NCBI GenBank assembly: GCA_021234155.1
Contig: JAJEKV010000071.1
Span: 124,001 to 188,000, forward strand
Source of the DNA: Isoetes taiwanensis
Taxonomy: Eukaryota > Streptophyta > Lycopodiopsida > Isoetales > Isoetaceae
Direction of reading: 5' to 3'
Length of the DNA: 64,000 nucleotides
Position 1 is the first letter of the stretch; the number at the start of each line of letters is the position of its first letter. Under the pieces are notes generated by a model. That model saw only the letters and a program-made list of their open reading frames with translations, ran no database searches and had not been told where the DNA came from. The position numbers and the translations under genes were made by a program. Shown piece by piece: positions 11,248 to 52,199 of this stretch.

Positions 11248-13951
11248 ATGGAGGCAGAGGAGGACGACTCTGAGTTGGACCAGGTAAGTTCTTCTGATAG
11301 AGCAGCATTTCTGATAGAGCAGCGTCCCATTGTGGCAGCATTTTTCAGTGGCTTTAGGTTTCTTTTTGCATTTGATTTCCAAAAGCTTTTGCTACTCCTA
11401 GTTCAAGATCCCGTCCACGGTCCGTTTTCTAGTTTGCAATTGCAATGGGAGATCGAGCATCATTCCTGTGTAGCCAAATCCACAACTCCACACCAATCTG
11501 TTCCTGTTCATATATGCCATATCCCCACAAACAGGGTTCAAGATTTTGTGGAAGGGGAGCAGAATTTGCCAGGATGCAATACCACATTCCAGAAGCGTGG
11601 ATCTCGGGGGAGAGAAGAGGGATCAGCCAAGAAGAAAGTTGACCAACACGCACACTTGAAATTAACCACGTAAGCCATTTCTTGTCTGACTGCCTGATTT
11701 GGTTTGATTGTTGGAGATACACAAGTTTGTTAGTAAGAAAATCAGTTTCAAATAGTTTGGCCCTACTTTTTCTTGCTTAGGTTAATAAGTAAAGTAGTCT
11801 TCTTCTTTGTAGCTACTGGTGCAGCTATGGCCCTGAGGATTATCGTGAGCGCACTCGTGAGATCAAAAATAAAAAAATCCCGAGCTGCAATTGCTGAAAC
11901 TAAGAGGAAGGATCCTTCCTACTCAAAGAGGTTTAGAGGAATGAGTATTAGGCGAGGTTGCAGGTGCCATTTTCAGGTCAAACAATTGTATGTGAAGCCC
12001 AAGATATGTAAGATTACATTCTATGAGATGAGACATATTGATAATAAAGGCATTGTCTGCCATGAAATGGAGGATCCCCAATGCTTTAGAACAAGGTATG
12101 ATGTAGCTCCATGGTTATCAAAGGGTAAGAAGACTTGGGCATACCAACAGTTGCTCCAGAACCACACTCCCCAGGAAGTTTATCGTCAATACCAGGAGCA
12201 ATGGTCCTTAAAGCATAGGATGCATTCCAATGCTCCCAAGAATAGAGATGAATTCCTGGCTATGGATGATCTGTATAACTTGTCCCGCAAGGTGGCTGCT
12301 GACAGATGGATGCTACACAAGGATGTGGCCACAAGTGTGAGGATGTGGGTTGACTTACACCAGGAGGATGTGTTCTTGTATCAGGAGGGTGTTCCTTTTA
12401 TTTTGGGCATCATCACCCCCTTTCAAATGAAGATCTTGTTGGAACATGGAAGGGGGAATGCGGTAGCCATGGACTCAACCTTCAAGACCAATGATCATTG
12501 TTACAGCTTGTATACCCTGCTAGTATATGACACACATGGAAATGGTGTCCCTGTTGCTTGGGTTCTAACCTCTAGTGCCACCCAGGGGGACATCCACCCT
12601 TGGCTGATGGCAATGAAGAACAGTATACATAGAGAAGACCCATCCTGGGAACCTTCATGTTTCATTGTGGATGACGCACAGGCTGAGATCAATGCCCTGA
12701 AGGACGTATGGCCTAGAACCAATATTCAGTTGTGTATTTGGCATGTGAGAAGAAGCTGGATGAAGTTGCTCTTGAAGCGCGTCAAGAATAAGAAGGTGAG
12801 GGGACCTCGGGCGTATTATGTATGCCACTTGTGGGGAATGTAATCCAAGAAGGAAGACTGATTATGTGGAGGCTTGTCGTAAAGAGGCATTGAGAAAACT
12901 GGATGAATTCAAGGAAAAGTACAAGATGTGGAAAAGGGTTGTGAGGTATATGAATAAGGTGTGGACCAATAACATCTCACATTGGATAATTGCAACAAGG
13001 ATGTATCCTCATGCCAACCAAGAGACAAATGCTGGCATAGAGTCTTACCATGGCCACATGAAGAGAAGATTAGGGGTCTCTAAGCATGCTTTGAGAGGAA
13101 GGCGAATTGATTGGCTGATTTACATGCTGACAAGCATATTACAAACCCACATGTCATATAACAGGTTCATGAAGGATGAGGGTTTTAAAACCAACAAGAA
13201 ACATGAGCACATAGTTGAGGCAGCCATTATAAGTGCAAGAGACATTCCTGAATTTCAAGGAAGGCAGGGCCGAGGTGTGGAGTCAGAACATGGATACTTG
13301 GGATGATAACAGGGAGGCATTGCCTTATTTCGTAGATGTGGCACATGAGCATTGGTCCACTTGTGATTGTCCATGGGGTATGAAAGGGAATACGTGCAAG
13401 CACCAAGTTAAGGTGATCTGAATGATGGCCAAGTACAATGAGGGAGATATTTTAAGTTTTTGTGGGACATTACATGGATCTCAGGCTGGCGGCTTGTCCA
13501 ACTCAAGGCACTTTGCCGAAGCATATGATGACATCTTGCCTCCTTCAGAAGAAGGGCCATGCACTGGTCAAGGGCCATGCAATGGTCTTGCACTTGATGA
13601 AGAAATTATGGACCAAAGCATTGCTGGTTGTTTGAGTCAAAACCCAAAGGTTAAGGTACTAGCGAGCATAGATGAATGACACAATGCTTGCTATAAAGGA
13701 GACCATAGCTAGGAGGCCCCAAGTATGGACAGAAGCTAAGGTTCCTTTTGGCTGAACTTAGCAATAAGTTGGCAAGGCGAAGTGACAGCAAAACTGACAA
13801 CACCAACGGCCCTGGTCTAGCCATGGTTGAAGACTTTAGTGGAAAGACCATTGTTAGGCCAATACCTTTCGTGAAGAGCCATAAGAAGAGGAAGAAGGCT
13901 AGTGCACAGCATTTTCTCGAAGGAATGCGAAGACCATATTACAAAATGTGA
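11248..13951 (+). pseudogene. MULE transposase (mudrA-like), frameshifted
   Basis: A short first exon, 11248-11283 (MEAEEDDSELDQ), ends at a consensus GTAAGT donor; the next acceptor is probably at 11811-11812. The main frame to about 12840 carries a FAR1-like Cys/His N-terminal segment (RRGCRCHFQVKQLYVKP), then the MULE transposase core. The catalytic Asp is in AVAMDSTFKTND (about 12470), the second in CFIVDDAQAEI (about 12662), and there is a conserved IQLCIWHVRRSW. A frameshift near 12790-12840 moves to a frame with NQETNAGIESYHGHMKRRL (about 13018-13075), which holds the catalytic Glu. A further shift near 13290 leads to a SWIM zinc finger, CDCPWGMKGNTCKHQ (about 13363-13407). A basic tail ends at 13951. 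The role is cutting and joining the MULE ends. The order is complete, but two to four frame breaks make this copy probably inactive, unless unrecognised introns account for some of them. Confidence 0.85.
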
Positions 13952-14189: not shown

Positions 14190-15470
14190 AAGCCATGGTA
14201 TTTTTGGCCAAATACCTGGTATTTCTGGATGCCTTTATAGTGGCTTATAGACCTCATAATCCTTTATTTGCCTTATAATAACAGTGGCTTCATTTTTCCT
14301 GACTTTTTTTGCCTCATGTTCATGTGTTATTTTGCTGGCTTTAGAGTAATATGGTAAGTTAATATGGTATTTCTGGCCAAATGCCATGGTATTTCTGGTC
14401 ATTGCTTGGTATTTCTGGCCAAATGCCATGGTATTTCTGGCCATGACAATGGTAATTCTGGCCAATACCATGGTATTTCTGGACATATACCATGGTATTT
14501 CTGGCCAATACCATGGTATTTCTGGACATATACCATGGTATTTCTGGCCATATACCATGGTATTTCTGGCCAATACCATGGTATTTCTGGACATATACCA
14601 TGGTATTTCTGGTCAATACCATGGTATTTCTGGCCAGTACCATGGTATTTCTGGACATATACCATGGTATTTCTGACCAGTACCATGGTATTTCTGGACA
14701 TATACCATGGTATTTCTGGCCAATACCATGGTATTTCTGACCAGTACCATGGTATTTCTGGACATATACCATGGTATATCTTGCCAATACCTTGATATTT
14801 CTGGACATATACCATGGTATTTCTGGCCATATATTATGGTATTTCTAGTCAGTGCCATGGTATTTCTGGCCAATACCATGGTATTTCTGGCCATATACCA
14901 TGGTATTTCTGACCAGTGCCTTTATAGTATCATAAAGTCCTCGTAATCCTTTATTTGCCTTATAACAACACTGGCTTTATTTTTCCTAAAAGAATTTTAC
15001 TTTGCCAGGACTATGGTATTTCTGGCCATATACCATGGTATTTCTGGCCAATACCATGGTATTTCTGGCCATATACCATGGTATTTCTGGCCAGTACCTT
15101 TATAGTATAATAAAGTCCTCGTAATCCTTTATTTGCCTTATAACAACACTGGCTTTATTTTTCCTAAGAGAATTTTACTTTGCCAGGACCATGGTATTTC
15201 TGGCCAATACCATGGTATTTTTGGCCATATACCATGGTATTTCTGGCCATATACCATGGTATTTTTGGCCAGTGCCTTTATAGTATCATAAAGTCCTCGT
15301 AATCCTTTATTTGCCTTATAACAACACTGGCTTTATTTTTCCTAAAAGAATTTTACTTTGCCAGAACCATGGTATTTCTGGCCAATACCATGGTATTTCT
15401 GGCCATATACCATAGTATTTCTGGCCATATACCATGGTATTTCTGGCCATTCCATTTAAAGCCCTGGTAT
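14190..15470 (+). repeat. Array of near-palindromic CCATGG/TGGCCA units, TTC orientation
   Basis: The unit is ATACCATGGTAT (a perfect 12-bp palindrome), then TTC, then TGGCCA (a 6-bp palindrome), giving about 20-22 bp with variants such as TGGACA, TGACCAG and TGGTCA. Dozens of copies occur. The unit has no stop codon in any frame when iterated, so long open frames appear on both strands and should not be read as genes. From about 14919 onward the units alternate with a second block, giving a higher-order repeat. The array lies between the transposase and the 3' end of the Ulp1-like gene. Confidence 0.9.
14919..15365 (+). repeat. Higher-order repeat inside the array, period about 174 bp
   Basis: A block starting TGCCTTTATAGTATCATAAA or close variants and ending in TTTTACTTTGCCAG recurs near 14919, 15094 and 15267. 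It is separated by four or five CCATGG units each time. A more diverged copy lies at about 14225-14310. The three close copies are almost identical, which suggests recent amplification of the compound unit. Confidence 0.75.
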
Positions 15471-15620: not shown

Positions 15621-18110
15621 TTAAATTTCAGAAGCTAATTTGAAGAAATTTCGGATTGTCTTTTGTGGTTTCTTTGCTTGTATCACAGCCTCATGTAGCC
15701 TGCCTAGTAGCATACTGAAAGTGCATCGGCAGTTTGCAACATCAACCTTTCCAAACCAATCCGGGGTCACCTGCATAGTTCAGCCTAGTTAGCATAAATA
15801 ATGAACATAAGAAAATCATACAATACATGTTTATACCTGAACAGGACGAATTTGCAGATCATTTAGAATGAAGTCCCTAATAAAACATCGTGCATATAAA
15901 AGAGTATACACTCCACAGTCTAAACCATTTTCTTGTTCAGGACAACGCATTTCCATCGGTTGGATGTCAACCCATTCTGGGGCAGGGGTATCCCAAATTT
16001 GATGGACCTCTTTGATCAACCTGCAGCCATGTAAAATTACAAAATTTCGGAATTATATAAGTACAGAATTAGATAGATAATGACAGAAATAGTAGCAAGA
16101 TGCCTACTCGCATATTTCACGTGATATCTCAGCAGCATACCACAATCTGAGGGAGTCAAAATGCAGCAAAATTGGATGTGGAGCTCCAAGTGTCTTGCAG
16201 ACTTCCCAATCAGCATAATAAACATATAGGCTACAATGATGGCTGCACTTAAGCAATTTGAATTAACTACTTATAAACACATCAAAAAATATGAATAAGC
16301 AAAGTCAATCGAAAGGATGTATTGATGCCAGAAGACTAACCTTCTACAAACAGGCAGCCAGTAGAAGAGGGGTGGCTCTTGGGGTTTGGCAGGAATCAGC
16401 TTCCTCCAAATGGACACAACCTTGTTCATGTACAAGTCCACAATGGCCGGGTGAAAGAAGACATGAGACCTTCTCCTTGGGACCGGTACCATATGAGAAA
16501 CAACCCTGTATTATGAATTCACAATCAGTGCAGAATTGAAATAAATGAGAAAGAGGGGCACTTACATGAGATAAGCTCCCACATATTGCTCATTCAACCA
16601 AAATTGTCCCATCTTTTCAGGAATATCCGTACCAGGATGCTCGAAGGAGAGGGCCTCCACATCATCTATCACAAATTCACCTTTTACATCCGAGACCGTA
16701 GGCCAAAGTGCGCTCCCCAGATGGACAGGCCATTGTGCATTGTAGGCAAGAATTGGATTAGATTTGATGCTCTTCCCTTTTTTTTTTTGTTAGCCCATTC
16801 CAGAGTGGTAAGGTCCTCCAGATGCATAAAAAAATCAAAATTCAGAATGAAGTCATCTGTCATGGTCACCATTGTTCTCCTGATTACCTCGGGATCATCC
16901 TCTCCGTCATCTGCCACATCGAAGTATGTGGATATCTGGTGCACAGATGATGAAGCAGCACCCAATTGTTCAGATGAGAGTAATTCTGAACCGATCCTCA
17001 ACTTTGGTTTTTGAGGTGCTTTGAAGGACATCCCTGTAGCTGTAGACTTGGTTAGCTTGGTAACCGATATGGAAGGGGATCTCGGCCCACTGCTGCTCCC
17101 CTCAAACCTGCCACAATAAAGTAATTTGGTCTGCAAACCCTCCTTGCATGTCTCTAGGTTACCCAAAGCTTCTCGGTCTACCCACTCTTTTCTGTCCACA
17201 GTATCCAGCCCATAATTTTGTGCAATGTACTTCTCATACTGTGCAATCTTTTTATCCTTCATTCTCTCCCACTCTAACCTCCTCCGAGCAACATAATCTT
17301 CAGCATGTTGCACCAAAGTTTTCTCTTTGTCCTCACCCTCTGGAATATTCTCAAGCATAGCCCGACCACAACCCAAAGCAAGCTCTCGGCATCTCTTCAA
17401 AAACCTGTACAGATTAACCTTGTACTCCGGATCAAAGGCATGCCTCAAGTTGTATTCCTGCATGTCCCGCCCTTCCCTTCTCTTTTGCTTTGTAACAGGC
17501 AGCCTTCTTCTGCCCTTTGGAGCCCCTGCTACAACATCATCCCATTCATGCTCCTTAAGGAGGTGATCCTGCAGCCTCTGCTTTTTTACAGAAGAAACAG
17601 ACAGATATGCTTTGCCTTCTTCCTACTATAGTAATACCTGCGTTCCCAAGCTGCCTCGTCGATCTCCGAGTCCTCCTCTAAGTAGGCTGCTACCACTTCA
17701 GAAGGCATGGGTTTCCCCCGGATTGGGCTGACCCTCTCTGCCCGCTTGATCTTCTTGATCACGCTCAATGAGCTCGGATGAAATGGAGTTATCTGTTTTT
17801 CCTCCTTTGCCTTTGCCTTAGCTTTCACAGCCTGGGTTGCTTGCATCATCTCCATCTGCTCTGGGAAAAAATCCTCTTCATTACCTTGATTCTCTTCTAC
17901 AACATAATCCGGATCGCGCTCTTCTTCCTCTGGATCGCCCTCTTCTTCCTCAGGATCCACTTCCATTCCCTTTGAAGATTCTGATGCATCCCCTTCTTCC
18001 GGGGATTCTTCCCCGGACGAATAGAAGTAGGATAAGCTCCCACTGTCATCCTCGCTCCCACTTTCAGAATCTCGCCCTTGGGCGCCTGCTCTGTCGCAGG
18101 AAGCTGCCAT
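15621..18110 (-). CDS. Ulp1/SENP-like SUMO protease gene carried by the MULE
   Basis: Six segments with consensus splice sites are read on the minus strand. The start is ATG 18108-18110, followed by an acidic Ser/Glu-rich N-terminus (about 150 residues) and a middle domain (about 17560-16566), the two separated by one apparent frameshift near 17590-17640. Then come exons 16505-16341, 16247-16108, 16020-15837 and 15770-15621 (stop TAA). The C-terminal part has the C48 peptidase layout: FWLNEQYVGAYLM at the domain start, HHCSLYVYYADW with the catalytic His, ILLHFDSL with the Asp, and CPEQENGLDCGVYTLLYA with the oxyanion Gln and nucleophile Cys. All four catalytic residues are therefore present, although the usual Trp after the His is replaced. 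The family removes SUMO from proteins. In Kaonashi MULEs the domain travels with the transposase. Here it is on the opposite strand and convergent with it across the repeat array. Confidence 0.8.
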
Positions 18111-18301
18111 AACTCAGCCTTGCTGTCCTGCGCTTTCAAATGTCACCGGAAGCCACCATAGCTCAGCCCCGGAGCTCTGTTTTTTCAAAAGTATGCTGCA
18201 CTAATATAATAGTTGGGTATTTTGGGCAGGACTACTACTGTCAGATCATTAGATATACCCCAATTTAAAAATGAGATGATGATAGTTCTGACAGGCCAGA
18301 A

Positions 18302-18385
18302 ATTGACAGATACCGGCCCAAAAATACCATGGTATAAGGCCAGAAATACCATGGTATATGGCCAGAAATACCATGATGTATGGCC
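18302..18385 (-). repeat. Short CCATGG/TGGCCA array, GAA orientation (left part)
   Basis: Three units in the order GGCCAGAAATACCATGGTAT, the reverse of the array at 14190-15470. The array breaks at 18385 and resumes at 25803, where the 7.4 kb transposon is inserted. Confidence 0.8.
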
Positions 18386-18412
18386 GGGTGTGTTTTTAAT
18401 TGATATAGGCCA
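18386..18412 (+). repeat. Left terminal inverted repeat of the 7.4 kb element
   Basis: The 27 bp from GGGTGTG to ATAGGCCA pair with the reverse complement of 25772-25798, with roughly seven mismatches. The adjacent GGCC duplicates extend the apparent match to 31 bp. Confidence 0.7.
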
Positions 18413-18679
18413 AAAAGCATGTGGGCGACATTGGTGCTGTAAAACTGCTTTTCGAACTTCAACCCCGAGCGTCATGCCCTTCAGCGCCCGTCGTCGAAGT
18501 TCTGCCCTTCATCCAACCGTCATCCAATTTTCATGGGCGGGAGAGAGCTTCCATTCTTGGATCGACTGGGCGCCGGATCAAGTTGAATTTGAAATGGGTA
18601 ATGGTGGAGTAAGCTCGGGTTCTTGCAATTGTCTTAAATTATGGCCGAAATTCTTTGTTTCATTTTTTTCTCTCAAATG

Positions 18680-21600
18680 GAATGGAACGCTTCCTTCCTC
18701 GGCTCTCTGGCCAAGAACAAGGTGGCGTTTGATCCTGCATCAATTCTTTCCGGCCTCCATGAATTCGAACAACAGTCCAAAAGATTTATGGAATCTTGTT
18801 CAAAATTCAGCACAATTATTGACAGAGGTCTTACTTCTGGTCGATAATTTGTTCTTGCATGACATAACTGTGAACAATGCTATTCTCTTTTAGGAAATGC
18901 TGGAATTGCTGCCCCCTCAGGTGGATCTTCAATTAAAGAAGTGAACCAAGAAGACAGAGGTGTAACCTCTGCTTGTTGATTTTTTTTTGCAATACTTTCT
19001 TAATTCTTAATTACTTCTACTCTATTTTTTTCAGGAAATGGTGGATTTGCTACCCCCTAGATGGACCAACTATTGAAGAAGCTTATCAAGAAGCTGGACA
19101 TGAAGGTTTAGCATTTGTATTTGTGTCTTTGCTTCAACAACCATTGAAATTTGTACTTATTAGCAAAGATATATATGTCTTTCTTGTTTTCAAGATTATG
19201 GACAACAAGTCATGGAAGATGAAAGCATAAACGGCTTTCACATTTCGAGGTATTTCAAATTGGTTTGCCAAATTGGTTTGCAATTTTGATTTCGGACTCA
19301 ATGTCAAGGTCTTGCACTTACTTTTATTGTACTTCCTCATTGCGTGTCTTGGTACATGTGTTGAAGAGGTACATGGTGAATTTGTTGTTAAGAAAAGATT
19401 GATTTTGAGTACTTGCAAGAGGAAACAATGGTGAGGCAACAGGTAACTTATTTACTTTCAAGTCTGCTTTGTCATTTTTTTTATCTTTGAATTGGTCTTT
19501 GAATTCATTTTAAAGCTTTTGTTCAACTGTAGGTGCGAGGATTATCCAATGAACAAGTAGATTTTGCATTTATACCAAAACATACAAGTCTTGATAACGG
19601 ATATTGAAAGTAAGAAATATTTATTTGTTTATGTTGATTAAATGACTCTTGCTTTGTGAAATTTAGCTATTGTTAGCATATGTAGCTGTCCTTTTAGGAA
19701 GAAGAGAGCTGAACAAAAGAAGGAAGGAGAGGCAAAAACAGAGAGAGAGAGAGGGAGCTGCGGATGAGCAAGCCAAAGTCAATGGTGAATTCAGCACAAA
19801 AAGAAGAAGAAAAAGGCTGTCAAAAAACATTGGCAAACTTGTATGGCGAAATTTGTGAAAACGCAAGTGAAAAGGACAAGGAAGATATCTTAAGGGGGGC
19901 AGCCAAATGGTTGCCTCAACTTGGTGTTGAATCCACCAAAGAAGTAAAGACTATGAAAGCTATAGTGGATAACTTGAAGAAATCATTTGCAGCGACTCAC
20001 AAGTATGCTAAGGATACGGATATTTGGAGAGCAAGAAGTACTTTATGCTATGGCTTTCTCGTAAATTCGATACCAATAGAAGAGCTTTTGCAAAGCAATT
20101 GAACTTGAATAGGAGAATTGTATCGATTCTTTGTGAATAGAAGGTTGGCGGTGAACATGGGAAAGGTCCATGGTCAATGTTTAAGAAGAGCACTTTCGAT
20201 GTGACAAGCTTTCTTATGATCAAAGAAAATTTGTGGTTGACTTCTCGGAGAAACAACACTAGAGTGTCACCTTGCAAAAACATGTCATGAAGATCGGACT
20301 AGCTAAAGGAGTGAAAGTAATGCATCCCTTGCATTTCTTGGAAGAAACTCAGGTCAGTTTTTTTTCTAAAGTAGTTGTGATTCTTATTTCAATTCAATTA
20401 CTTACTTTTGTTGTTTCTTCAATTTGATGTTCTCCTAGGTGTGTTTCTACAAGAGGTTTACAGCAGAATACCCAAAATTTGAGGTATCTTTCTCAATGTT
20501 TCATGCTTTGAAGCCACCATATGTGAGGAAAGTTAGGGATAGAGAAACTTGCTGCTGTGTCTACCACATGAAAGCAGACTTTATAAGACAAGCAATAAAT
20601 AAGGTTAGGCATGATGAGAAGATTCATGGTAGTAGCTGCAATTGCACATGTTTAGTTTGTGGTCCAGGACCTATTTGCATGGCCAAAACATGCACATATG
20701 CAGCTACTAGTGAGTTGTGGAGGTCATTAGTCTGTCAAAAGGATGAAGAAACAGAAGAGTGGCATAGACATGAGTGTTTAACTCTAAAATGCAAGAAATG
20801 TGGACCTGCCAATTTACCTACATGTCCAAAGGAGCTAGAACACAAATCAGATCACAAAATCGAGTGGAAAACCTATGACAAGGTAAGAGTTCAACCTAAT
20901 AGTATCATGATTTCTATTTGTGATGTCTAATGTCAATGATTTGTCATTACTGTTGCAGGTACTTGAGCCTACAGGAGAGCCAGAGCCTGATGGGAAAGGA
21001 GGGTTCAAAGTTGGTAGTAAACCAATTACCAAACTAGTTTACAAATGCACAACTGCTGCTTGCATTTTCCAGGAAGCAAAAACAGTTCTAAAAGAATTTA
21101 TTCCACATAACTATGAAGGGAGATGGCAAGCCAAGCAATTCAGAGAATGCCTGGCAACATTCCCAAAAGACACAATTGTGTCAGTCATAGATTTTGCTGA
21201 AAACTATAGTTTTAAGATTCACAAGAGATACAAAAGTCGCATTGGAGGAATGACCAATGCACAATCTTGGTGCATATTACTTATAGACACGCTACCAAGT
21301 TAGATGACATTAATCTTGACGAGAAAGAGAAGGGTTGTGAAGGAAACTCACTTCTACATATCGGATAGCGGGGACCATGATACATTGATTGTGCAGCATT
21401 GCTTGAATAAGCATGCTGCATTCTTGAGCAGCAAAGGTGTGAAATACAACAAGCACATCATGTGGTCTGATGGATGTCCTCATCAGTTCAAAGGATCAAG
21501 AACCTTCTATTTCCTTGGCAGGAACTACCACAACACTGGCATTCCAATAAATTGGAACTACTTTGCCTCATATCATGGAAAGGGTAAGTACTTTTATGGT

Positions 21601-22557
21601 TTTTCTTTGTGTTTGTAATGTATTCTTGTTATCTCATGGAAATTGTATACCAGGTGAGCATGATGGTGCTGGAGCTGTCATCAAACGAGCTTTAACTCAT
21701 GAGATGCTGAAGAGGAGCTCAGTACCCTTAAGAAATGCACATGATGCAGTGGTATTTCTAATTAAACATTTCAGTGACAACTCCCAACTCGAGGGAAAGG
21801 ACAGATACAGGTATGCTGAAATAGTGCTGTTTTTTTCTTACAATATGAGAAATAATCCTCTTTTTACAGGTTCTTTTGGGAAATTGGAGTGGATGAAGTC
21901 GACAGGTCACAGAGGTTTGATTGTGCTACACTAGTAGGTTCAAGCAAATTTCATTCTATCAGGCCAATTCAAACAACAGATCCAACACAGGTAGCTCATA
22001 TGGATTATAGTTGTTTCTGCCATAACTGCTGGTTAGGCAAACATGCCAAGTGTCCTAACAAAGCCAGAATAGGTACATGGCAGTACTCAGAACTTAGACC
22101 ATGTGCTGATTATGTGGAAGATATTGTGGATGGTCCTGTGTTTGAAGGTGATCCACAATGGATGTCTGATATTCTTGCAGTTGGGGATAATTTTGCTGTA
22201 GTTTCAGAGCCTGACAATAAAGAGAAGGTGGACTTTTATGTTCTTAAATGCACCAAAGTCAAACATGTTGTTGAGAAGGCATTCAAAGATCCATGGGGTC
22301 AGAAGTTTGGCAGAAATGAAGTTGTTGTTACTGGGTTATTCTACAAGTATTTAGGGTGCAATAGATATGAGCTACTTGTGAATGAACCAGAGTGTAATGT
22401 TTACAGTCATTTGGTAACTTCAGTTTGTTTTGAAATGAGCAATAGTGATGGAATTGGAAATTGCTTCAATTTGCCAGAAGACATACAAAACCAAATACTG
22501 GACAGCTTGCCACAAAACAGTGCTTTGTTTGCTCAGGAATCAGATCAGCCTACATGA
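18680..22557 (+). CDS. DDE-transposase-like gene of the 7.4 kb element
   Basis: The 3' half is well preserved. Exons are 20439-20882, 20959-21583, 21654-21810 and 21870-22557 (stop TGA), all bounded by GT-AG. It encodes a Cys-rich segment (RDRETCCCVYHMKADF; CNCTCLVCGPG; CKKCGPANLPTCPKE), then a transposase-like core. The core has VSVIDFAENYSFKIHKRY with a probable first catalytic Asp, IMWSDGCPHQFKGSRTFYF with a probable second, and NWNYFASYHGKGEHDGAGA with a probable Glu. A second Cys cluster follows (CFCHNCWLGKHAKCPNKA), then a C-terminal segment with BAH-like features (DFYVLKCTKVKH; DPWGQKFG; EVVVTGLFYKYLG). Proteins with the DFAENY / SDG-QFK / HGKG-DG-G signature are familiar to me as uncharacterised transposon proteins of animals and algae. 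The 5' half (18680-20352) is only partly readable, with frameshifts near 20100-20280, and a stop plus compensating shifts lies near 21300. Start and upstream exons are uncertain. Confidence 0.65.
18894..19107 (+). repeat. Duplicated exon-like segment in the 5' part of the + gene
   Basis: Two similar blocks, 18894-18963 and 19034-19107, both follow a polypyrimidine-AG and begin GAAATG. They read EMLELLPPQ and EMVDLLPPR in the same relative frame, which looks like a tandem exon duplication upstream of the conserved part of the gene. Whether either is spliced in cannot be told from the sequence. Confidence 0.45.
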
Positions 22558-23079
22558 AGTGTTCATAATGAATCAAAGTGTAAAAAAAATTCCAAGTCTG
22601 TATCAAATTGTCTGCATCCAAGTCTTTAATTGTAACATTGATTGTAACATGGATTCTTTCATTGATTCATGAAAGTTTTAGTTTCATTGTTTATAACATT
22701 AAGTTTCTAGTTTCATTGTTTAGTTGTTGTTTTGTTGTTTAGTTTCATTGTTTTAGTTTCATTGTTTTTAACATTAAGTTTTTACTTTCATTGTTTAGTT
22801 TCAAAACTTCGAGTTGCCAATCTTCAAAACTTGGAGTTAATGTTTTTAATACTTTGCTTGCAAAACAAGGGATTGATAACTAAAAACATTAGCACTTCTA
22901 TGACTGCAAACAACTTCATATTCCAAAACAAGTATCCTCAAAAGATAATAGAGATATGTATTCATGTAAAAGTTTACAAAACTGGCACCTAAAAGGGAAA
23001 ATTGGTGCTCACTGTTTTACATGAAAATATAACTTAGAAGTTAAAATAACTGAAAGTTTTTCTGACAACAAAACAAGTA
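22558..23079. other. Intergenic region between the two convergent genes
   Basis: This 520-bp gap holds no ORF. It is T-rich, with repeated AGTTTCATTGTTT words at 22678-22805. It presumably supplies the 3' untranslated regions and polyadenylation signals for both genes. Confidence 0.5.
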
Positions 23080-25443
23080 TCACTTGAAGATATTTTTCAC
23101 AACTCCCTTCATCTGCTCCTTCTTCTTCAACCACCCTTCCATGGTAAGCTCCTCCTCCATTGGGCTGTCTGGGCTTTCTGGAGTTTGGAGTACTTTCCGC
23201 TGTGATGGAGTTAGCACCACACCCACTGGTGATATTACTACAATGCTCAGTTCTCGACCTGCATGAGCAAGAAACTAACTAATTAAACTATGTAAAGAAC
23301 ACCCTATGTAAAGAACCTCAGGAAATTTTAACTCACAGGTGTTCAGGGGAGTTGGAATCTTGCTGGTGTCAGGACCATCTCCTTCAGTGACTTCATTATC
23401 TGCATAATGTTAATTAGGACTAGTTAGAAGAAAACTGCTGAAAAACTGCTTACCAGTTTTAACTGGAGTCTTCGTAGGAGAGAGGGAGTGATTTTCTTCA
23501 GTCTCATTTTCTGTTAAGAATAGACATTCATGTCAGAGATTTGTAGGGTTTGAATTAATGTGCAAAACTCACTTACCATTGTTCAATGGTACTTGTTTAG
23601 CTGGTGAACTCTTTTCTGTTGAACTCTTAACAGCTTTTGAACTACCTTCAGCTACATAAACAGACAATTCTAAGATAGTTAAGACTTAATTGAATGAGAT
23701 GTTGGAATACTATTACCTTGCATGTTAAGGGACTGATGTTCTTTTGCAAAGAAATTCTCCAGAATATCATCCACAGCCTTTTCAGTTTCTTTCTCTGGAA
23801 TTTCCTTTCTTCCAGTAGGTTTTTGCACTTTCTTTTTCTTAGAACCAGTCCCTTGTAAGTTAATACATGCTGACTTAGATCTGGGCTGAAAACCCTCTTC
23901 ACGAGTCAAGTGTGAAAACTTTACAGGACTAACTTTGTCCACATCGATTGGATCTATAATGAATACATATGAACACAATTAAGTTAACAGACCTAAACAA
24001 TTTAGTAATCAGCAAATTTCATACCTGTTTCAACTGGCTTTGATGCATTACCCTTTGTAGAACTCCTTGTCAATCTTTTCTTTGCTTGTCTGACTGGCTG
24101 AAAGTCTTTACTTGCTGGTTCATTGAATAAGGAGGTACTAGAGCTTGAATCATCTCTGAATCTTTTCTTAGGAGTTACCTCCTTCTTTGTGCTTTTGGAC
24201 TTGAAATCTTCTTTGCTGATTTTTTCCACTTCTTCTGCAGATTCATCACTATCTTCTTCATCATCAGACACTGGTGGCTTCAGTTCCTTGAAGCCAAGCT
24301 CGTCCAAAATGGTGGCAGGCACCTCAGCTTCACAACCTGATGCAATACATTGCATACTTTCCAGCACAACACTGAAGCAAATTACATGGTAAATGTGTCC
24401 ACATTCTTTGAGTTTGACATGCAACTCATATTCCTCTGAAAACAGAAGGCCACAGCCCTCACAAGTACTTCCCCCATCAGCAGACATTGGGAAAAAATAA
24501 TTTCCCATTCCTATCTTTGGCAGATTCTTCTTTGACTTATGATTCTGTTGCAAATGTGCCACATGTTTGCACTTTGCATGCCAATATTTCAAGTTAACTT
24601 CATATTCTTCAATTTCAGACTCAAGGATAGAAATACTTGACTTTAGTGCTTGCAGACTTGAGGAGTTGGTCTTCGACTTCTGCTTGTCTAAAAATGATTG
24701 CAAAGCTTGCTCTTCCTTTTGTATTAACTCTATTGCATCCTCTTCTTCAGGGTTGAGGAGCTTCAAGGCCATCCAGTTCTGCCTTTTCTCATTAATTTCA
24801 TCTTCAAGATCCTTAAAGCATGCCATCGAGCTATTAGCAGAACCCTCCATCCTCAACAGATCAGCCTGCTTCTCCACCAATTCCTGTTTACTGTCTTCTA
24901 ACATTGTAGAAAGAGACCTCATGTGGTTCAGCAGGGATTTGGTGTTCTTTTCAAAAGCATTCCCATGCTCTTTGTTCAACTGTACTTGCCCAATTCTGTA
25001 AGCCTCTGCTGCTAAACTCGCCCAATTGACCTTGTACTCATCAGGATTCTGCAAGGCTTTAGCACTATGAGACCAGGCGAATGCTCTGGCAAACAATGTT
25101 CGAAGTTCATTGTTTGGAAGGGGTTTCTGGTAAACCCTCTCGATCAAGTCTGTCAGAGATGTCTTGAACTCGGGCGATCGACGCTTTTACATGAATCTTG
25201 CCCGTCTTGGGCATGGGCTTCTGCCAAACTTGCAAAAATTCTGCATCTGAAACATCTCCCTTTTTGATGCTTCTTGGATTTTTGCCCTCCATAGAAAGCT
25301 TGCGATACTTAGCAAATTCAAGAGGAGTTCTTGCGAAAAGCATTTCCTGGAAACCCGATTGAACATTCTACATTAAGAAAAAAAACAAACTCGGACTAAA
25401 AAAAAATGCTTCTTACCTCGCCGGAATTGGTTTTGGTCGCCAT
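23080..25443 (-). CDS. Coiled-coil/RING-like companion protein of the 7.4 kb element
   Basis: I do not recognise the family. Exon 1 is 25443-25417 (MATKTNSGE, donor GTAAG). Exon 2 runs from 25346 to about 24025, where the donor GTATGA follows KPVETG. Small exons follow near 23955-23717, 23653-23579, 23512-23455, 23400-23340 and a last exon from about 23260 to a TGA at 23080-23082. The protein has an N-terminal segment, a long coiled coil (about 24930-24580) and a Cys/His cluster with RING or zinc-ribbon spacing (CEGCGLLF...CGHIYHVICF...CIASGC). An acidic Ser-rich stretch, a Lys/Arg-rich region and a conserved-looking end (MEGWLKKKEQMKGVVKNIF) follow. One apparent 1-nt frameshift lies near 25175-25190, where PMPKTGKIH and SPEFKTSLTDLIERV are in adjacent frames. 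Its place inside the element, convergent with the transposase-like gene, suggests a DNA- or chromatin-binding accessory protein. A captured host gene is the alternative. Confidence 0.65.
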
Positions 25444-25771
25444 GTTTTCTTCTTCGAGTGTTGAATTCAAAAAACAGAAGAATTTGAAGCAGGATGAAGC
25501 ATTATCATTCGCATTAAGGCAAAGGACAGATCAATCCGGTCGGACAGTCCAAGAAATTAAGGATTTTGAAGAGCCCGAGGAAGAATTATGCATAAAATCA
25601 TTCTTCCAAATGATTCGCGCCAGAAAAAGAATTGATGACTGGTGGCCTTCTCTGACCGTCAGTGCCTGTCAGCGGCCTTCATATGTATGCCCCGACGGGC
25701 CATCCGACCGGCAGTCGATCCGCCGAATTAAATCTAAAAAAGTGCTAAAAAAGTGCTTGACGGGCGGAAAA

Positions 25772-25798
25772 TGGCATATATCAAGCATAAATAGACCC
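25772..25798 (-). repeat. Right terminal inverted repeat of the 7.4 kb element
   Basis: TGGCATATATCAAGCATAAA through ATAGACCC is the imperfect inverse of 18386-18412 and is followed by the GGCC duplicate at 25799-25802. Confidence 0.7.
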
Positions 25799-26340
25799 GG
25801 CCAGAAATAGCAATGGTGTGTGCCGAGAAATATCATATTAAATTGCAATACAATTTACCATAAATTACCTTATAACTAAATTACCATACAATTTATGTTG
25901 TCACAGCCTTAGTGATCATGGCCTTAGAAATGGTATAGCCTTGTGACAACCTTAGAAAGATCATGGTATGCTTCTGGACAGGACCATGGTTTATGTCCAG
26001 AAATACCAGAATATGGCCAGAAATACTATTGGCTTGTCTAGAAATACCATGGTCTTGGCCAGAAATACCATGGACTTGGCCAGAAACACCATGGTATTGA
26101 CCAGAAATACCATGGTAATGGCCAGTAATACCATGGTATTGGCTAGAAATACCATGACACTGGCCAGAAATACCCTGGTATATGTCCAGAAATACCATAG
26201 CCTTGTCCAGAAATACCATGGTCTAGGCCAGAAATACCCTGGTCATGGCCAGAAAAACCATGGTATTGGCTAGAAATACCATGACACTGGCCAATATGGC
26301 CAGAATGGCCAGAAATACCATAGCTTTGTCCAGAAACATG
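25799..26340 (-). repeat. CCATGG/TGGCCA array, GAA orientation (main right block)
   Basis: It continues the array split at 18385. After an AT-rich interruption (25840-25965), about 16 units of the GGCCAGAAATACCATGG type follow in reverse orientation to the left array. The interruption carries a segment (TTATGTTGTCACAGCCTTAG, about 25891) that returns at about 27242 before the next block, so the right side was also amplified as a compound unit. Confidence 0.85.
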
Positions 26341-27010
26341 GAATAAAATAACGGCTAAGGTTAGCCAAATGGCTATTTTGTAGCATTTTTGCCAAGAAAA
26401 ACGGCTAAAGTAAATAGAAAAAATGCCCAAAAAAAAGAAAATTTTAGCCCAATTTTTTTGCCGCCCAAGTGAGTTTCTAGGTTGAATAGCCAAACCTTTA
26501 TCTCCAGACATATCCATCAGGACATCGATTAGCTAAACCTAAGATAGAGTGGGCTTGGAAAAATAGATAGATTAGCACGAAGTTCAACACTAATGTATGT
26601 ACTATATAACTTTAAGAAATTTCAAATAGGGTTTATATTTTGTTTCTTTTTTTCTTTTTTTCACTTTCTTTTTTGTTCCAAGTACAAAGTTGAAGCATTT
26701 AGAGGAAAAGGAACAATACAGTCCCCTTTTTTTTAACGTTTTTGAACATGTTCATGTATGTTTGTGTCTTGATTTATGTATTTATAATAAATTCAATGTC
26801 TTTGCCAAAATACTTGGATTTTTTAAATTACTATAGCGTGATGGCTAATATTTGCCTTTCCATTTTGTGAAAGTTTAGCCAAAAGCAAGAAACTGTGATG
26901 GAGAAAAACCATTTAGTTTAGCCAAGTGTTAGAAACTTCTAGCCCCAATTTGAAGGTAGTTTAGCTAAACCTATTTTGGCTACACTAAAATATAGGAGTA
27001 GTAATTTATT
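26341..27010. other. AT-rich interruption between right-hand arrays
   Basis: No coding potential. Words such as TTAGCC/GGCTAA recur on both strands (26348-26410 and 26870-26985), giving a loosely inverted arrangement that could be a decayed MITE inserted in the array. I could not define termini or a target duplication. Confidence 0.35.
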
Positions 27011-27460
27011 CTATGTCCAGAAATACCATGACACTGGCCAGAAATACCATGATAATGGCCAGAAATACCATGGTTCATGTTTAGAAATACCAGAATATGG
27101 CCAAAAATAACATAGCCTTGTCCAGAAATACCATGATACTGGCCAGAAATACCATAGTTTATGTCCAGAAATACCATGTTAACTAGCTACATTAATCTAA
27201 AAGCTAGTCAAAGTTTAATAGTTGTATTGATCTAAAACAATTTATGTTGTCACAGCCTTAGTGATAATGGCCTTAGAAATTGTATAGTCTTGTCCAGAAA
27301 TACCTCTGTCTTGGCCAGAAATACCATGTTTTTCCTAGCCAGAAATACCACGTCATTCATGGACAGAATAGAATAGAATATGATTTTATCATCCACGGAG
27401 ACCAACAAATACCATGTCACTCCTAACCAGAAATACCATGTCACCCATGGCCAGAAAAAC
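27011..27460 (-). repeat. CCATGG/TGGCCA array, GAA orientation (terminal block)
   Basis: About 12 units with more divergence than the other blocks, broken at 27180-27290 by a copy of the segment also found at about 25891 and at 27365-27406 by a short LINE tail. It ends close to the right MULE terminus, so on this side the array is subterminal. Confidence 0.8.
27365..27406 (-). mobile_element. Minimal LINE 3' tail inserted in the array
   Basis: On the minus strand, TTGGTCTCCGTGGATGATAA is followed by AAATCATATTCTATTC and further ATTCT units. The first part matches the LINE 3' end at 9924-9947 with one substitution. Only about 25 bp of LINE sequence is present, so this would be an extremely 5'-truncated insertion. 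Confidence 0.55.
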
Positions 27461-38956: not shown

Positions 38957-39507
38957 TGTTAGATATAATGCAGATGTGTGAAGGGATACACTAATTGTGA
39001 AGAGGAATCCAATGATCAAAGTGGAGACTAGGTGAGTTAAATATTTGATGAAGGCAACTATTTGTGAAGTCATATTGAATGCATAAGAAGAATACTAAGT
39101 TCAATGGTTCGAAGTTAAATAATGGTCTAGGTTCAAACCTTATGGTCGGGGATATCATAGAAATACATATTCAGTTATTTATAGTTATATAAAGTGGTCG
39201 AATGGAATCAATCGAACTCCTACAAGAGAGGCGACCGAGTTAGATTGATCAGAAACCGCCTGCAAGCGGCTAGGATCGGATCCATATATTGAAATCTAAG
39301 ATGTGTTCGAGGAGTGAGCAGAAATGCGATGTCGTCTGCAGAGGAATGAGTTATATTCATTGTTTTATTGACTCATTGAAATTGCAGTAGTTTGGGATTT
39401 GAATTTATTGTTAAGGCTTTGTATAGCTTAACTAATAGGATTGAAGTTAGTTGCCAATATTTAGCTTAGAATTGTTGCTTCTAAGTTGATACTCACGTTG
39501 TTTAACA
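38957..39507 (+). repeat. Copia 5' LTR
   Basis: Starts TGTTAG and ends TTTAACA (TGTTA/TAACA inverted ends). It differs from the 3' LTR at about a dozen positions by eye, most of them A here against G in the 3' LTR. Confidence 0.9.
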
Positions 39508-39508
39508 T

Positions 39509-39521
39509 TGGTATCAGAGCC
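39509..39521 (+). promoter_or_regulatory. Primer-binding site, tRNA-iMet type
   Basis: TGGTATCAGAGCC begins two bases after the 5' LTR end and is complementary to the 3' end of plant initiator tRNA-Met. Confidence 0.9.
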
Positions 39522-39523
39522 AA

Positions 39524-42500
39524 ATGGCAACTAGACTTGGTTCTTCTCTGCTCAATGGAGTTGAGATATTTCAAGGAGAAGCAGGATTCCAGGCATGGAA
39601 GGAAAGAATGAAGGATGTGTTGCTAGCTGAAGATCTTTGGAATCTGGTGATTGGAGAAAGTACTGAAGAAGGTGAGAGCAGCACAGCAAATTCACGTGAC
39701 AGTGGTGCAAGTGAGGCATCTATAAATGATGTTTCGAGTGGGAGCAACACTAAGAAAACACATCAGGCAAGATGTATTGTTGCTAGCAAGCTTAGTTCAA
39801 ATATTATGTTCAAAATAAAAAATAAAACACCCAAGGAGATGTGGGATTTTTTGATAAAGAACTATGAGGTGAAAAATTCATCTCAAATTGAATTGCTTGA
39901 CAGGGAGTTGAGGAGATTAAAATTCAAGGAAGAAGATAATCTAATTGTGTTTTTTCAAAGGTATGATAACATTGTTACAGACCTTGAGGCAGTTGGAGTT
40001 CCAATAACAAAAGATTTCCATGTGCTTTCTCTTTCAAGGGCATTTTCTGAGTTTGAGCAACTGTCTACCTTAGTGAGAACAGTAGCTAGAAATAGAGAAA
40101 AAGCTGAACTTATGATAAGAACTGAAATTGAGCAGCAGAAAATATTAAAAGGGGAAGAAGAGAACTCTGAGGTGCTGTTTGCAGGAAGGAAGAAAGGACA
40201 AATGGGAAATCAAAAAAAAGAAATTAGGACCATGTTATGGTTGTAACTCATATGAGCATTTAAAAAACAATTGTCCAAAGCTGAAAGAAAACATGTGCTT
40301 TAATTGTGAGGGCCTTGGGCATTTAGCTGCTGCTTGCCCCAGCCCAAAAGGGATTGGAAATAAGAATAAGGGCAAGAGAGACTCTAGTTTTGGTAAAAGG
40401 ACAAATAACATGAGAAGAAATGAAGGCACCAACAGTGTAAATCTAGCACAAGATGGCGGTGCTGAGGAAGAAGATCCTGAAGCTGAGGTAAGTAAATTTG
40501 CTACATGCTCAATTTCAAACGAGAAAGCTAACAAAACCAGTGACATGCTTGTGATAGATAGTGGAGCTGAGAGATCAATAGTTAATCTACTGATACTCTC
40601 AGAGACAGGAAGAAAAGAGTCTCTACATTTGTGCAAATGGGTGATGGTGAGCTGCAAGAAGTTAAAGAATCTGGAATGCTTGAGTTATACGATCTTGAAG
40701 GCAATGTTGTTAATCTGCATAATGTTTTGTCAGTTCCAAATATTGTGAGGAACTTGATTTCAGTCAGCCAGCTGGTTGATATGGGCTTCAAGCTTTTCTT
40801 TGACAAATACTGTTGTAAAGTATTTGAGAATAATAAAATTAAGTTTCTTGCAAAGCGTATTGTCAATCTATTTGGTTTTCATAACAGAATGTTAGCTGGA
40901 AGTTTAAACTCTGTGGAGATCCCAACACTTAAGCTTTGGCATGAGAGATTGGGACATGCCAAGCATGGTAGGAAAAAGTACAAGGTTACCCTTCCAAAAA
41001 AGGCATGAGAAAGCTGAAGATCTACTAGAACTGGTACACTCTGACCTTTGTGGACCAATCAATGTAAAAAATATGCAAGGGAGAAGATATTTCATTACTT
41101 TCATTGACGACCACTCTAGGTTTACTAAGTGTTTTTTTCTTAGTAAAAAAAGCCAAGCCTACAAGGCCTACAGGATTTATGAAGCTGAAGCTGAAAGGAT
41201 GACAGGGAAAGTGGTCAAATGTTTGAGAACAGACCGTGGAGGTGAATTTGTCAATGACACTTTCAGAAATTATTGCAGAGAGAAGGGTATTAAAAGGCAA
41301 ATCACTTGCAGCCACACTCCTCAGCAAAATGGAGTGACTGAAATAGGTATATTCTGGACTGTGTAAGATCCATGTTGAAGCAATCAGGGTTACCCAACTG
41401 TCTACATTCAAAATAAATTACCTTCTTCTAGTCTAAATGGGCTGATTGCTGAAAACTTATGGAGTAAGATAAATGCAAAGTATGAATACTTGAAGGCATT
41501 TGGATGTATGGCATTTTCCCATGTGCCAAAGGAGGTAAGAAAAAAGCTTGACAATCGAGCAGTAAAAGGGTTCATGGTTGGTTATGATGAAATGTCCAAG
41601 GGGTATAGAATTTATTCTCCAGAGGAGAGGAAAATCATTATTAGCAGAGATGTTAAGTTTAATGAGAATATACTCTACAAAAATAGGAAGGAAATTGACA
41701 ATAGACAAGATCTATTTGGGCATGTTGATCATAATTATGCAGATGAACAGAATGCACAGGCATATGATCAAGAAGATGATGATACAGTCGAAAATTTCAG
41801 AGATCACAATAGAGAAGAAGGAAACATAGAGACTGCTGACTATATTGAAGATAATGTTGAGGAGACTGATAAGCATATAGAAAATAATGCTGAGGAAATG
41901 ACCATACGAAAGAAAAGCACAGAGGTTGAAAGACTAAGAGAAGGAATTAAGGACATAGATTATGAAAAGCATGGGAGAACCCCTGCTGGTACATCTAAAC
42001 GATTTCAAACTCTTCACATTGAAATCAATGATATTATGGCAATATTAGAGCCTAATGTGCCTAGAAATTATGAGGAAGCACTGAATTCAGAGAATTCAGA
42101 TCAATGGAAGATTGCAATGGAGGAAGAAATGGGGTCATTTGCTAGAACACAAACCTATGAACTAGTAGAGAAGCCCAAAGATAAAAATATTGTAAGAAAT
42201 AAATGGATATACAAGGTGAAAACAGGTCATGATGGAGAACAAAAATTCAAGACACGGTTAGTTGCACAAGGATTCACTCAAAGAAAAGGTATTGACTAGG
42301 ACGAGACTTTTTCACCTATTGTTAAACTAACTAGTTTGAGAGTTCTACTTGCCTTTGCTAATGCACTGGATCTTGAACTTCATCATATGGATGTTAATAC
42401 AGCCTTTTTTAAATGCTGATCGACATAAAGAGATCTATATGCAGCAAGCTCAAGGATTTGAACAGGGGAAGAATAAGGTGTGGAAGTTGAATAAAGCTGT

Positions 42501-49353: not shown

Positions 49354-51263
49354 CTTTTTCTCGAGCTCAATCCAAACTAATAATCATCCCAATGATAATG
49401 CCTCGACCCCTTCCATAAATATCAAAAGTATATTATCTTATGCCCCTTCTTTATATATACTTGGGGAAACATTAGGATTAATATTCACATACTACCATGG
49501 CACTTCCATGCATCCAGCACCACCCTGCTCCGGGAGGCTAGCAACTACTACTCTAGCAATCTGTCCTAGGATTATAAATCTCAGCCCAAACCACTAGAGT
49601 TCTCCAACCAGGCAAAACGGCAAATTCTCTAAGAACATGCATACAATCTCTTTTCTTCCATATTTCTTCTGAAGGCAAATACAAAATACTGACCTATATG
49701 CAACTCTAGAGTGGGTACCTTCTATGATGTAGATTGCAGAAGTCATAAAATTGGGGTTACAAATTCCAATGTACAGACTATAGTTGACAACACAAGTGTT
49801 AGAAATACTTGAATACTTATATACTAACTACGAGTTGCATGGTGTATATCTTTAGTTGCAAGCAATTTATAAATATGCTTTGAAGCTACGGCTACGATGT
49901 TGTGCTTCGAACAAATAATAAATCAAGAGCTAATCTAAAAGTGATCTAAAGCTCTTTTACCTGGGAGTGCGATAATGCATGCAATTCTTATGTAGGAGAC
50001 CATCTAACAGTAGATACCATCATTAGGCATATATACAACTGGAATTGGCCAGCTCTCTCATAAATTGTTGTTAAGTCCATATATGTATAACCAGGATGCC
50101 CCTGAGAAAGCAAGGTATTGGCCAGCCCTCTCAAAGTTCTTTTCCTCATTCTATATACGTTTAACACTTCATGTTTCATGCCTTGGAAGAGCATTCAGTG
50201 CATATGATGCAATCATGGAATGCAATAAAACACCAGACTACAATACCTGTAAAGATCTCAACTCCCATTTTTTCTAGCTAAGAGCTTGAAAACAATCGAA
50301 GGCACAGGTCTCCATCTCAAAATCACACCAAAAATCTTCTTGCCAGAAGTCGGCACAACCAAACACTACATAGAACAATAACAAGAAGAACAAGAAGGGC
50401 CCTCATAAGTCAGCATCTTGATGGAGATGTGGATTTTGTCTTGATGGGTTCAGTACACGAAAGAAAACAAAACTGAAGTCCCGTCACCAGAGCCAAAAAA
50501 TGATAAGATGCTCCAAAGTAAAGGCGAATCTGAAATATATCAGCAACAAAAAAAATCCAGCACCCAAATCCCAAGGAAAAAGAGGAAACATGGGCCTCCG
50601 CATCGCGAGGATCTCCGGAAGACCATGCGAAGTGGAATTTTCTGTACTTTCTAATTTTCCTACCTGTAGATGCGGAATTAGAAAGATCTAACAGCATAGA
50701 ATCATTTTGGCCTATGTGGCATGATACGTGGCATAGCTAGAATCACAGCAAATCGGTCACCTCGAGTTAGGCAACCCTCCAAAAAAAAAATATGTGAAAA
50801 ACATTGCAAAGGTTACGGGCCACGAAGTTGCATGCTCTGTTCTAAAACAAGTTGCACTTTCAATAGTTGCGCTGTCTAATAAAGGCCATGTTGAAATGCG
50901 GCTCCGGATTTAGTGTATTATTACCAGCCATACAAATTTGCGTCCTACAATAGATCTTGGATACGGGCTTACTCTTCCTCAGAAGTTTCAAAGGCCTAAC
51001 TTCAATACCAAGTAAGCTGCTTCAGTAAGAGATATATATTACTTAGGGTTCTGCTTTCAACCTACAAAATCCGACATTTTATGCGATCCTTTTTTCATTT
51101 CAAGCATACCAATCTGCCCGGAGTAAAAGAATGTACAGATGGCTGAGCTCTAGGAGCAAAATCGTGTGTGATAATTGCTGGTGTGCATATCTTCCTCCTC
51201 ATTAGTTTTTTTTTTTATTGATTTCAAAAGCAGAAGGGGATTTGTTCTTTTACACCGGAAAGC
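49354..51263. other. Spacer and upstream region of the ATL gene
   Basis: 49354-49490 continues the host repeat interrupted by the LINE. The rest has no recognisable gene. ATTGGCCAGC(C/T)CTCTCA occurs twice (about 50046 and 50118). A long T run followed by TTGATTTCAAAAGCAG at 51208-51233 resembles an intron 3' end, so the ATL gene may have an intron in its 5' untranslated region. Confidence 0.4.
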
Positions 51264-52199
51264 ATGAGCACAGATGCCAGTCCGGTTCCTGTAGGCACTA
51301 TAGATGATACAGATTTCAGCTCGTTAGGCTGTTCTTTCAAACCAACTATGGCAATAGTTCTAGTAGTAATGGTGGTACTGTTTCTTTTTCTGGGTATGGT
51401 TCTCGTGTATATAAGGAAAATCAATGCTGGGGTTGCTAATGGTAATCCTGTGAATTGGCAGCAGGATAATGGGTGTCATGGCATGGACCCTGATATGGTG
51501 AAGAAATTTCCAATCAGAAGGTATGCATCTGTAAAAAGGCTGGGATTAGGCAAGGAAGAATATGAATGTGTGGTATGTTTGACAGAATTTAAAGAGGATG
51601 ACAAGCTAAGGTTGCTTTCTGAATGTGGCCACTCTTTCCATCCAGATTGCATAGATAAGTGGCTTCGTTGCCATACCACATGTCCTCTTTGCAGGCACAG
51701 TTTAGGCCCTGTTGTAGCTACCAGTTGTGATCCTTCCTCAGCTTCCAACCCGAATTCTTATCCTGTTCAAGAATTATCATCTGCGCAGCAGCGAACATTA
51801 TCTAATCAACACAGGGTAGCTGATGATCAAAACATGCCTGCTGTGCGCTCTCTCTCACATAATTCTGAGTCTTTGAGAATGGCTGCTCAGGATATTGAAA
51901 CAGACAAAAGTGCATCAGTATATTCATCGAGCACGCTTGCAGAGGGATCCTCTTCTAGTTCTAAAAACTTCACATCTGTAAATTCTTCCACAAGTAGGCC
52001 AAATGATTTTTCTGACATAAGGGATTCAAGTATATGTGTAAATATCATGGGTTCAGTGACCAATGAAAAGGGGCAGATTATGATAAGGCCTGCAACATCT
52101 TCAAGTCATAACATAGATCTGGAAAAGGGCAACTTCATGTCAGAAGAACATTCTTGTTTAGCATTGCAAACTTCTGCCTCTGATCTGAAGACCAGCTAG
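51264..52199 (+). CDS. ATL-type RING-H2 E3 ubiquitin ligase
   Basis: A single uninterrupted frame of 311 residues starts at ATG 51264. One transmembrane segment lies at about residues 28-50 (MAIVLVVMVVLFLFLGMVLV). The GLD-type motif is present in altered form as GMDPDMVKKFP (residues about 74-84). The RING-H2 domain follows at about residues 101-143: CVVCLTEF, CGHSFHPDCIDKWL and CPLCR give the C3H2C3 order and the Trp expected for E2 contact. The remaining 165 residues are Ser-rich and probably disordered. ATL ligases are membrane-anchored enzymes of plant ubiquitination and are usually intronless, as here. Among window genes it is one of only two that look fully intact. The exact ATL subgroup and substrate cannot be told. 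Confidence 0.92.
   Translation: MSTDASPVPVGTIDDTDFSSLGCSFKPTMAIVLVVMVVLFLFLGMVLVYIRKINAGVANGNPVNWQQDNGCHGMDPDMVKKFPIRRYASVKRLGLGKEEYECVVCLTEFKEDDKLRLLSECGHSFHPDCIDKWLRCHTTCPLCRHSLGPVVATSCDPSSASNPNSYPVQELSSAQQRTLSNQHRVADDQNMPAVRSLSHNSESLRMAAQDIETDKSASVYSSSTLAEGSSSSSKNFTSVNSSTSRPNDFSDIRDSSICVNIMGSVTNEKGQIMIRPATSSSHNIDLEKGNFMSEEHSCLALQTSASDLKTS

Follow-up and report, generated by a model that had tools for sequence, protein, structure and literature searches.

A 7.4-kb, probably Sola-like DNA transposon of Isoetes taiwanensis with two convergent genes that occur together in most copies

In this study, a 64,000-nucleotide stretch of the Isoetes taiwanensis genome (contig JAJEKV010000071.1, positions 124,001 to 188,000; hereafter the window) was found to hold a transposon with two convergent genes, a transposase gene on the plus strand and a partner gene on the minus strand (Table 1). 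The original prediction, made from the letters of the window, had described a bounded element with its own inverted termini, and its boundaries proved exact to the base: the alignments of six fetched copies of the same family (family A; L031, L033, L035, L037, L039 and L041) start at the left boundary, and those of six fetched copies (L032, L034, L036, L038, L040 and L044) stop at the right one. The termini, GGGTGTGTTTTTAATTGATATAGGCCA and GGGTCTATTTATGCTTGATATATGCCA, form a 27-nt imperfect inverted repeat with 21 of 27 positions matching, a level that was equalled by 7 of 2,000,000 random window pairs. The insertion site is a 21-22 bp minisatellite interrupted by the element, and joining the flanks minus one GGCC restores an ordinary minisatellite unit, which indicates that the insertion duplicated GGCC. 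In the window copy alone, the palindromic GGCC also permits a reading as a 0- or 2-bp duplication, and the other copies decided the matter. Beyond the termini, a search for subterminal repeats gave an inverted alignment that was matched by 260 of 500 shuffles and a direct one matched by 49 of 500, and an Rfam scan of the window returned no matches. The minisatellite unit, ATGGTATTTCTGGCC, forms arrays at 14364-15450 and at 18290-18385 plus 25954-27370, which lie in opposite orientations on either side of a Ulp1-like gene; the transposon sits in the right-hand array.

Table 1. Features of the transposon, numbered from the first nucleotide of the window
Feature	Position	Strand	Remark
Whole transposon (7413 bp)	18386..25798	.	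ends common to independent copies
Left 4-bp target-site duplication copy, GGCC	18382..18385	.	
Right 4-bp target-site duplication copy, GGCC	25799..25802	.	
Left terminal inverted repeat, starts GGGT	18386..18412	+	21/27 match to right end
Right terminal inverted repeat, ends ACCC	25772..25798	-	
Transposase gene, decayed here	18677..22557	+	start codon at 18677 and 5' exons putative
Transposase exon, Cys/His-rich (zinc-binding-like), precedes catalytic core	20439..20882	+	
Transposase exon with first (21190-21192) and second (21469-21471) catalytic Asp	20959..21583	+	two frame changes
Transposase exon with third catalytic Asp (21662-21664) within GEHDGAG	21654..21810	+	
Last transposase exon, Cys cluster	21870..22557	+	
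Partner gene, 7 exons	23080..25443	-	seen in other copies too
Partner exons	25443-25417, 25367-24025, 23953-23717, 23651-23577, 23510-23454, 23399-23337, 23258-23080	-	
Predicted long helices / coiled coil, model residues 48-221	24524..25045	-	low-confidence model
RING-like finger, C-x2-C..C-x-H-x2-H-x2-C..C-x4-C	24341..24463	-	zf-RING_5 E=0.0043 to 0.021, below Pfam cut-off

Other copies of the element were sought in the window's assembly (1.658 Gb, 1110 contigs) with the transposase core as the query, which gave at least 47 matching pieces; all genomic copy counts are lower bounds, because 40 of 1229 first-look candidates were scored. Nine loci including the window constitute family A at 92-100% identity (the eight other close copies at 92-98%), and the remaining fetched loci (L010-L030) constitute a sister subfamily, family B, at 75-79% identity over near-full-length matches. 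The shorter, unfetched transposase pieces reached an identity of up to 85%. Fifteen copies (9 of family A and 6 of family B) were read; the flanks were fetched for 13 of them, the C337 copy ends with its contig, and the window copy was whole. A perfect 4-bp target-site duplication was present in all nine copies with both ends intact. Six of these, the window copy included, belong to family A, and each has a duplication of different sequence; the other three, with lengths of 7389, 7053 and 6337 bp, belong to family B, whose termini are of the same type (GGGTGTGTTT). The remaining six copies were left out of this count for one or both ends missing in the stretch read, namely C1107:1.54 Mb (left end only), C1088 (right end only), C337 (contig end), C907 and C1107:84 kb (right end unreached) and C1056:11.39 Mb (left nucleotides lost). 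Two further partner matches, G000:C941:4887017 and G000:C983:339499, have identities of 85% and 83%, between those of A and B, with transposase pieces adjoining, and may perhaps represent a third subfamily.

The two genes were found together in both subfamilies. Among 30 fetched transposase loci (L001-L030), 29 were testable, as L008 ends with its contig, and the partner lies downstream of the transposase at 26 of them, in 23 cases within a 1.5-kb flank and in three (L012, L013 and L016) at 2.4 to 5.2 kb as located by a search for the partner. The reciprocal search with the partner scored 40 of 132 candidates, and its 44 pieces were merged into at least 39 places, 33 of which have a convergent transposase: at 21 an opposite-strand transposase match lies within about 6 kb, and for the other 18, for which one 2.2-kb stretch each was taken, 12 have transposase sequence (149 to 2294 bp), convergent in every case. 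Moreover, the pair lies within the termini in all nine copies read with both ends. The two genes thus occur together at most loci, with 3 of 29 and 6 of 39 as exceptions, and copies with one gene outside the termini, or a pair unique to this locus, were looked for and neither occurred. These data also bear on the idea that two elements became nested or adjacent by chance, to which the other transposons of the neighbourhood lend some colour; it is refuted by copies that occupy unrelated sites and have this gene pair enclosed by the same termini, and its probability is negligible.

Consensus introns had been proposed for both genes, and GT..AG introns do link the four 3' exons of the plus-strand gene and all seven exons of the partner. 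The plus-strand product is supported by its predicted fold as a transposase of the DDE/D type, in agreement with the original prediction. In this fold, which was modelled for an outside relative, three conserved aspartates are placed as in DDE/D enzymes, and the candidate Glu329 is variable (24/33 relatives). The conifer proteins LOC131074642 of Cryptomeria (32% identity) and KI387_026096 of Taxus (38%) are homologous to the transposase, but they fall in a separate, strongly supported group of a tree that was built from 34 of 42 relatives (at least 420 amino acids) and the window protein, whose row is long-branched. Scans of viral contigs with P0002, A1 (an alignment of 33 of the 42 relatives), P0040 and P0019, and of genome contigs with A1, gave no confirmed relative, and the single match at E<=0.001 in a viral structure library, a MutS-like protein with a template-modelling score (TM-score) of 0.15, was uninformative. 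In the 5' part of the gene, the exon-like blocks at 18821-18991 and on to about 19100 are alike (GNAGIAAPSGG.. and GNGGFATP..), and a 39-nt direct repeat with 77% identity in neighbouring blocks represents a small internal duplication.

Judged by its reading frames, the window copy is a decayed, broken remnant. Compared with the outside relatives, the exon that carries the first two catalytic aspartates is read in frame 1, then in frame 3 (21210-21326) and then again in frame 1, with frame changes at about 21210-21225 and 21311-21334. Weak colinear matches to P0040 were found in three frames of the gene (E=0.15, 1.1 and 0.005), and further breaks probably lie at about 20030-20290. The breaks in the exon of the first two aspartates are not family-wide, because C1037 and C1107:1.54 Mb have an open frame there. 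In the partner gene the frame changes once, at about 25107-25186, where at least two copies (C1025 and C919) have a single frame, and most other copies have stops or frame changes in one or other gene. Two candidate features were set aside. The TAG at 21301-21303 falls in the out-of-frame stretch and was not taken for a nonsense mutation, and a tiny partner intron near 25160 would be about 22 nt long, in a place where the frame of at least two other copies is uninterrupted. In the family A copy G000:C1107:1532163-1541907, the partner gene is interrupted by about 8.3 kb of other sequence, likely a later insertion.

The minus-strand frame of 394 codons exceeds those of all 300 dinucleotide-matched resampled elements (longest 215). 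The predicted protein starts with MATKTNSGE and continues with predicted long helices, a finger, and an acidic and basic tail that is taken to be disordered. The finger has the pattern C-x2-C-x16-C-x-H-x2-H-x2-C-x9-C-x4-C, and every one of its ligands is unchanged in the C907 copy. zf-RING_5 matched the window protein at E=0.012 or 0.0043, according to which stretch was scanned, and the C907 protein at E=0.021, all below the Pfam cut-off. The best of these matches reaches 17.4 bits, where the cut-off is 27.9, and the spacing of canonical RING E3 ligases ends in C-x2-C, so that the finger, with its last pair of C-x4-C, falls outside the canonical RING definition. The product may be described, as the original prediction had it, as a coiled-coil/RING-like protein, a designation that is weakly predicted. 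A ubiquitin- or SUMO-ligase activity is possible but less likely than a structural role, because the last cysteine pair departs from the canonical pattern. The N-terminal 71 residues had no Pfam match, and neither the N-terminal piece nor exon 2 nor the later exons matched Myb at E values up to 1. The structure was predicted from a single sequence with a predicted local distance difference test score (pLDDT) of 50, too poor for a fold search.

Selection on both genes was assessed with the window copy (family A) as the sole reference against segments of family B, which share ancestry and are therefore not independent comparisons. From the 49 segments, 9 were removed because they contain more than one stop and 5 because they are shorter than 40 codons, which left 35. 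The ratio of nonsynonymous to synonymous divergence (dN/dS) was obtained for 22 of these, and because the estimate failed in 13, all 35 were counted by codon position. In all 11 partner segments the differences are most numerous at third positions (exon 2 totals 227/183/498), and so they are in all 24 transposase segments. For partner exon 2, the comparison with C907 gave a dN of 0.162, a dS of 1.217 and a dN/dS of 0.133 over 379 codons, and that with C1056 (181 codons) a dN/dS of 0.247; for the N-terminal part of the partner the values were 0.053 and 0.076 (58 codons each), and for the transposase exons 0.063-0.216. As a control on the C907 alignment, the other forward frames gave ratios of 1.69 and 2.09, and the reverse frames 1.73, 0.25 and 2.80. 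The value of 0.25 is unexpected of a control and is read as a reverse frame whose silent sites coincide with those of the coding frame. Decay after insertion raises dN/dS, so that purifying selection is if anything stronger than the ratios show. Purifying selection thus acted on both the partner and the transposase during the divergence of A and B, which argues that the partner was then a working gene of the element; its co-occurrence with the transposase points the same way.

These findings bear on the view that the partner is a host gene which the element captured and carries as a passenger. Plant transposons often carry fragments of host genes, and the partner gene has several introns. However, no relative of the partner was found among 3677 candidates of the protein database at E<=0.01, or among 96 at E<=10, in a database that did contain the conifer relatives of the transposase; moreover, the partner is under purifying selection in both subfamilies, with a transposase adjoining at 33 of the 39 places obtained from 40 scored candidates of 132. 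A passenger is accordingly very improbable.

Taken together, we consider the element to be a DNA transposon with 4-bp duplications, likely of the Sola kind, in which both genes occur together in most of the copies examined and the partner is a predicted nuclear cofactor of transposition; a probability of about 0.68 is given to this reading. As the pair lies inside the termini and has been kept by selection, the 'second component' of the original prediction remains the best description of the partner. In the mechanism proposed, an enzyme of the RNase-H/integrase fold with three aspartates (DDD) would cleave at the inverted ends and insert the element into target DNA by integrase-type strand transfer, with a stagger of 4 bp; movement would be cut-and-paste rather than replicative. 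In PIF/Harbinger elements, the Myb-like protein serves to bridge or recruit the transposase at the element ends; by analogy, the partner would most probably self-associate through its coiled coil, be directed to the nucleus by its basic tail, and likewise bridge or recruit the transposase at the inverted ends. It is likely, at least, that the partner helps the element to move or persist. A stronger proposal, in which the element is a two-component DDD transposon of a plant Sola lineage and a coiled-coil/RING-like protein of a new family is its obligate partner, the first for the superfamily, is tentative, and we would lean against it at present.

The chief rival holds that the element keeps the partner for a role outside DNA cutting and joining, such as countering host silencing or tuning expression. 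Anti-silencing proteins are known from some plant Mutator-like elements (MULEs), the selection on the partner shows a benefit to the element and not its kind, and a long charged tail with a degenerate finger would suit a chromatin or regulatory protein equally. Against this, the joint retention of separate convergent genes, here across a dS of about 1, is typical of transposition cofactors, though not exclusive to them, and the present evidence does not separate the two readings. The regulatory role is regarded as unlikely, although it is the strongest competitor of the cofactor.

We consider Sola to be among the least studied superfamilies of eukaryotic transposons. In the available part of PMC10741241, its members are described as having DDD transposases, 4-bp duplications, lengths mostly of 2-9 kb and inverted termini of 11-1124 bp, and as present in Physcomitrella and apparently uncommon in flowering plants. 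Sola1 is tabulated for Physcomitrella and also for Capsicum (PMC9033089, in part), 2739 Sola copies are listed for the fern Ceratopteris (PMC6890710, in part), and a mollusc study puts Sola1 at 5445 bp on average (PMC10294476, in part). The element has the 4-bp duplications in 9 of 9 both-ended copies, three conserved aspartates in its predicted fold, a size of 7.41 kb, 27-nt imperfect termini and a land-plant host, and on these features it is likely Sola-like. A land-plant host is also indicated by a RING-H2 gene similar to plant ATL proteins and by copia and MULE elements, all within the window, and by the conifer homologues of the transposase. The original prediction, which knew of no named plant superfamily with this pair, is amended in this respect, as the 4-bp duplications and the DDD triad fit Sola as reported from Physcomitrella (PMC10741241 and PMC9033089, as far as the available parts go). 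Besides these features, the present element has a second conserved gene for a coiled-coil/RING-like protein. PIF/Harbinger elements also combine a transposase with a separate second protein, but their canonical duplication is 3 bp, and some relatives have one of 0 or 2 bp (PMC12730594, in part), in contrast to the 4 bp found here in 9 of 9, and their second protein is of the Myb/SANT type, for which the partner has no match. No report of a transposon with a RING-type second protein was found in the open-licence literature, which does not prove its absence. The transposase might instead belong to an unnamed superfamily, since the Sola placement draws on the length of the duplications, the DDD triad, the size, the termini and the range of hosts; moreover, Pfam gave no family at E<=1 for the window protein and weak, scattered matches among its 33 relatives (best DUF6597, E=2.4e-4, in 4 of 33), none of these scans named Sola, and no solved structure matched by sequence. 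However, every testable Sola feature in the available text of PMC10741241 was found in the element, which leaves an unnamed superfamily quite unlikely.

Several observations weigh against the preferred reading of a Sola-like element with a transposition cofactor. The partner was not found beside three of the 29 testable transposase loci (L014, L021 and L024), and no transposase was present in the 2.2 kb examined beside 6 of the 39 partner places, although it may extend beyond. In the decayed C919 copy two finger cysteines are read as tyrosine, and the C1056:11.39 Mb copy lacks the first 22 nt or so and has differing flanks with no matching duplication. The proposed function of the partner comes from a RING match below cut-off, a model with a pLDDT of 50 and analogy. 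Even so, the locus offers a candidate transposition cofactor, a protein family for which the protein searches gave no relatives, and a two-protein system that is directly testable.

The neighbourhood of the transposon holds other mobile sequences. To its left lies a MULE transposase frame at 11737-13303 (+), of which the part 11737-12840 matches Pfam MULE at E=6e-20. Together with a convergent gene at 15834-16052 (-), which has a Ulp1-type peptidase C48 exon (E=1e-5), it possibly constitutes another two-gene element. To its right, a RING-H2 gene at 51222-52199 (+; zf-RING_2 E=4e-14), which we take to resemble the plant ATL proteins, is probably an ordinary host gene, and Ty1/copia gag and polymerase pieces lie at 39506-42299 (+).
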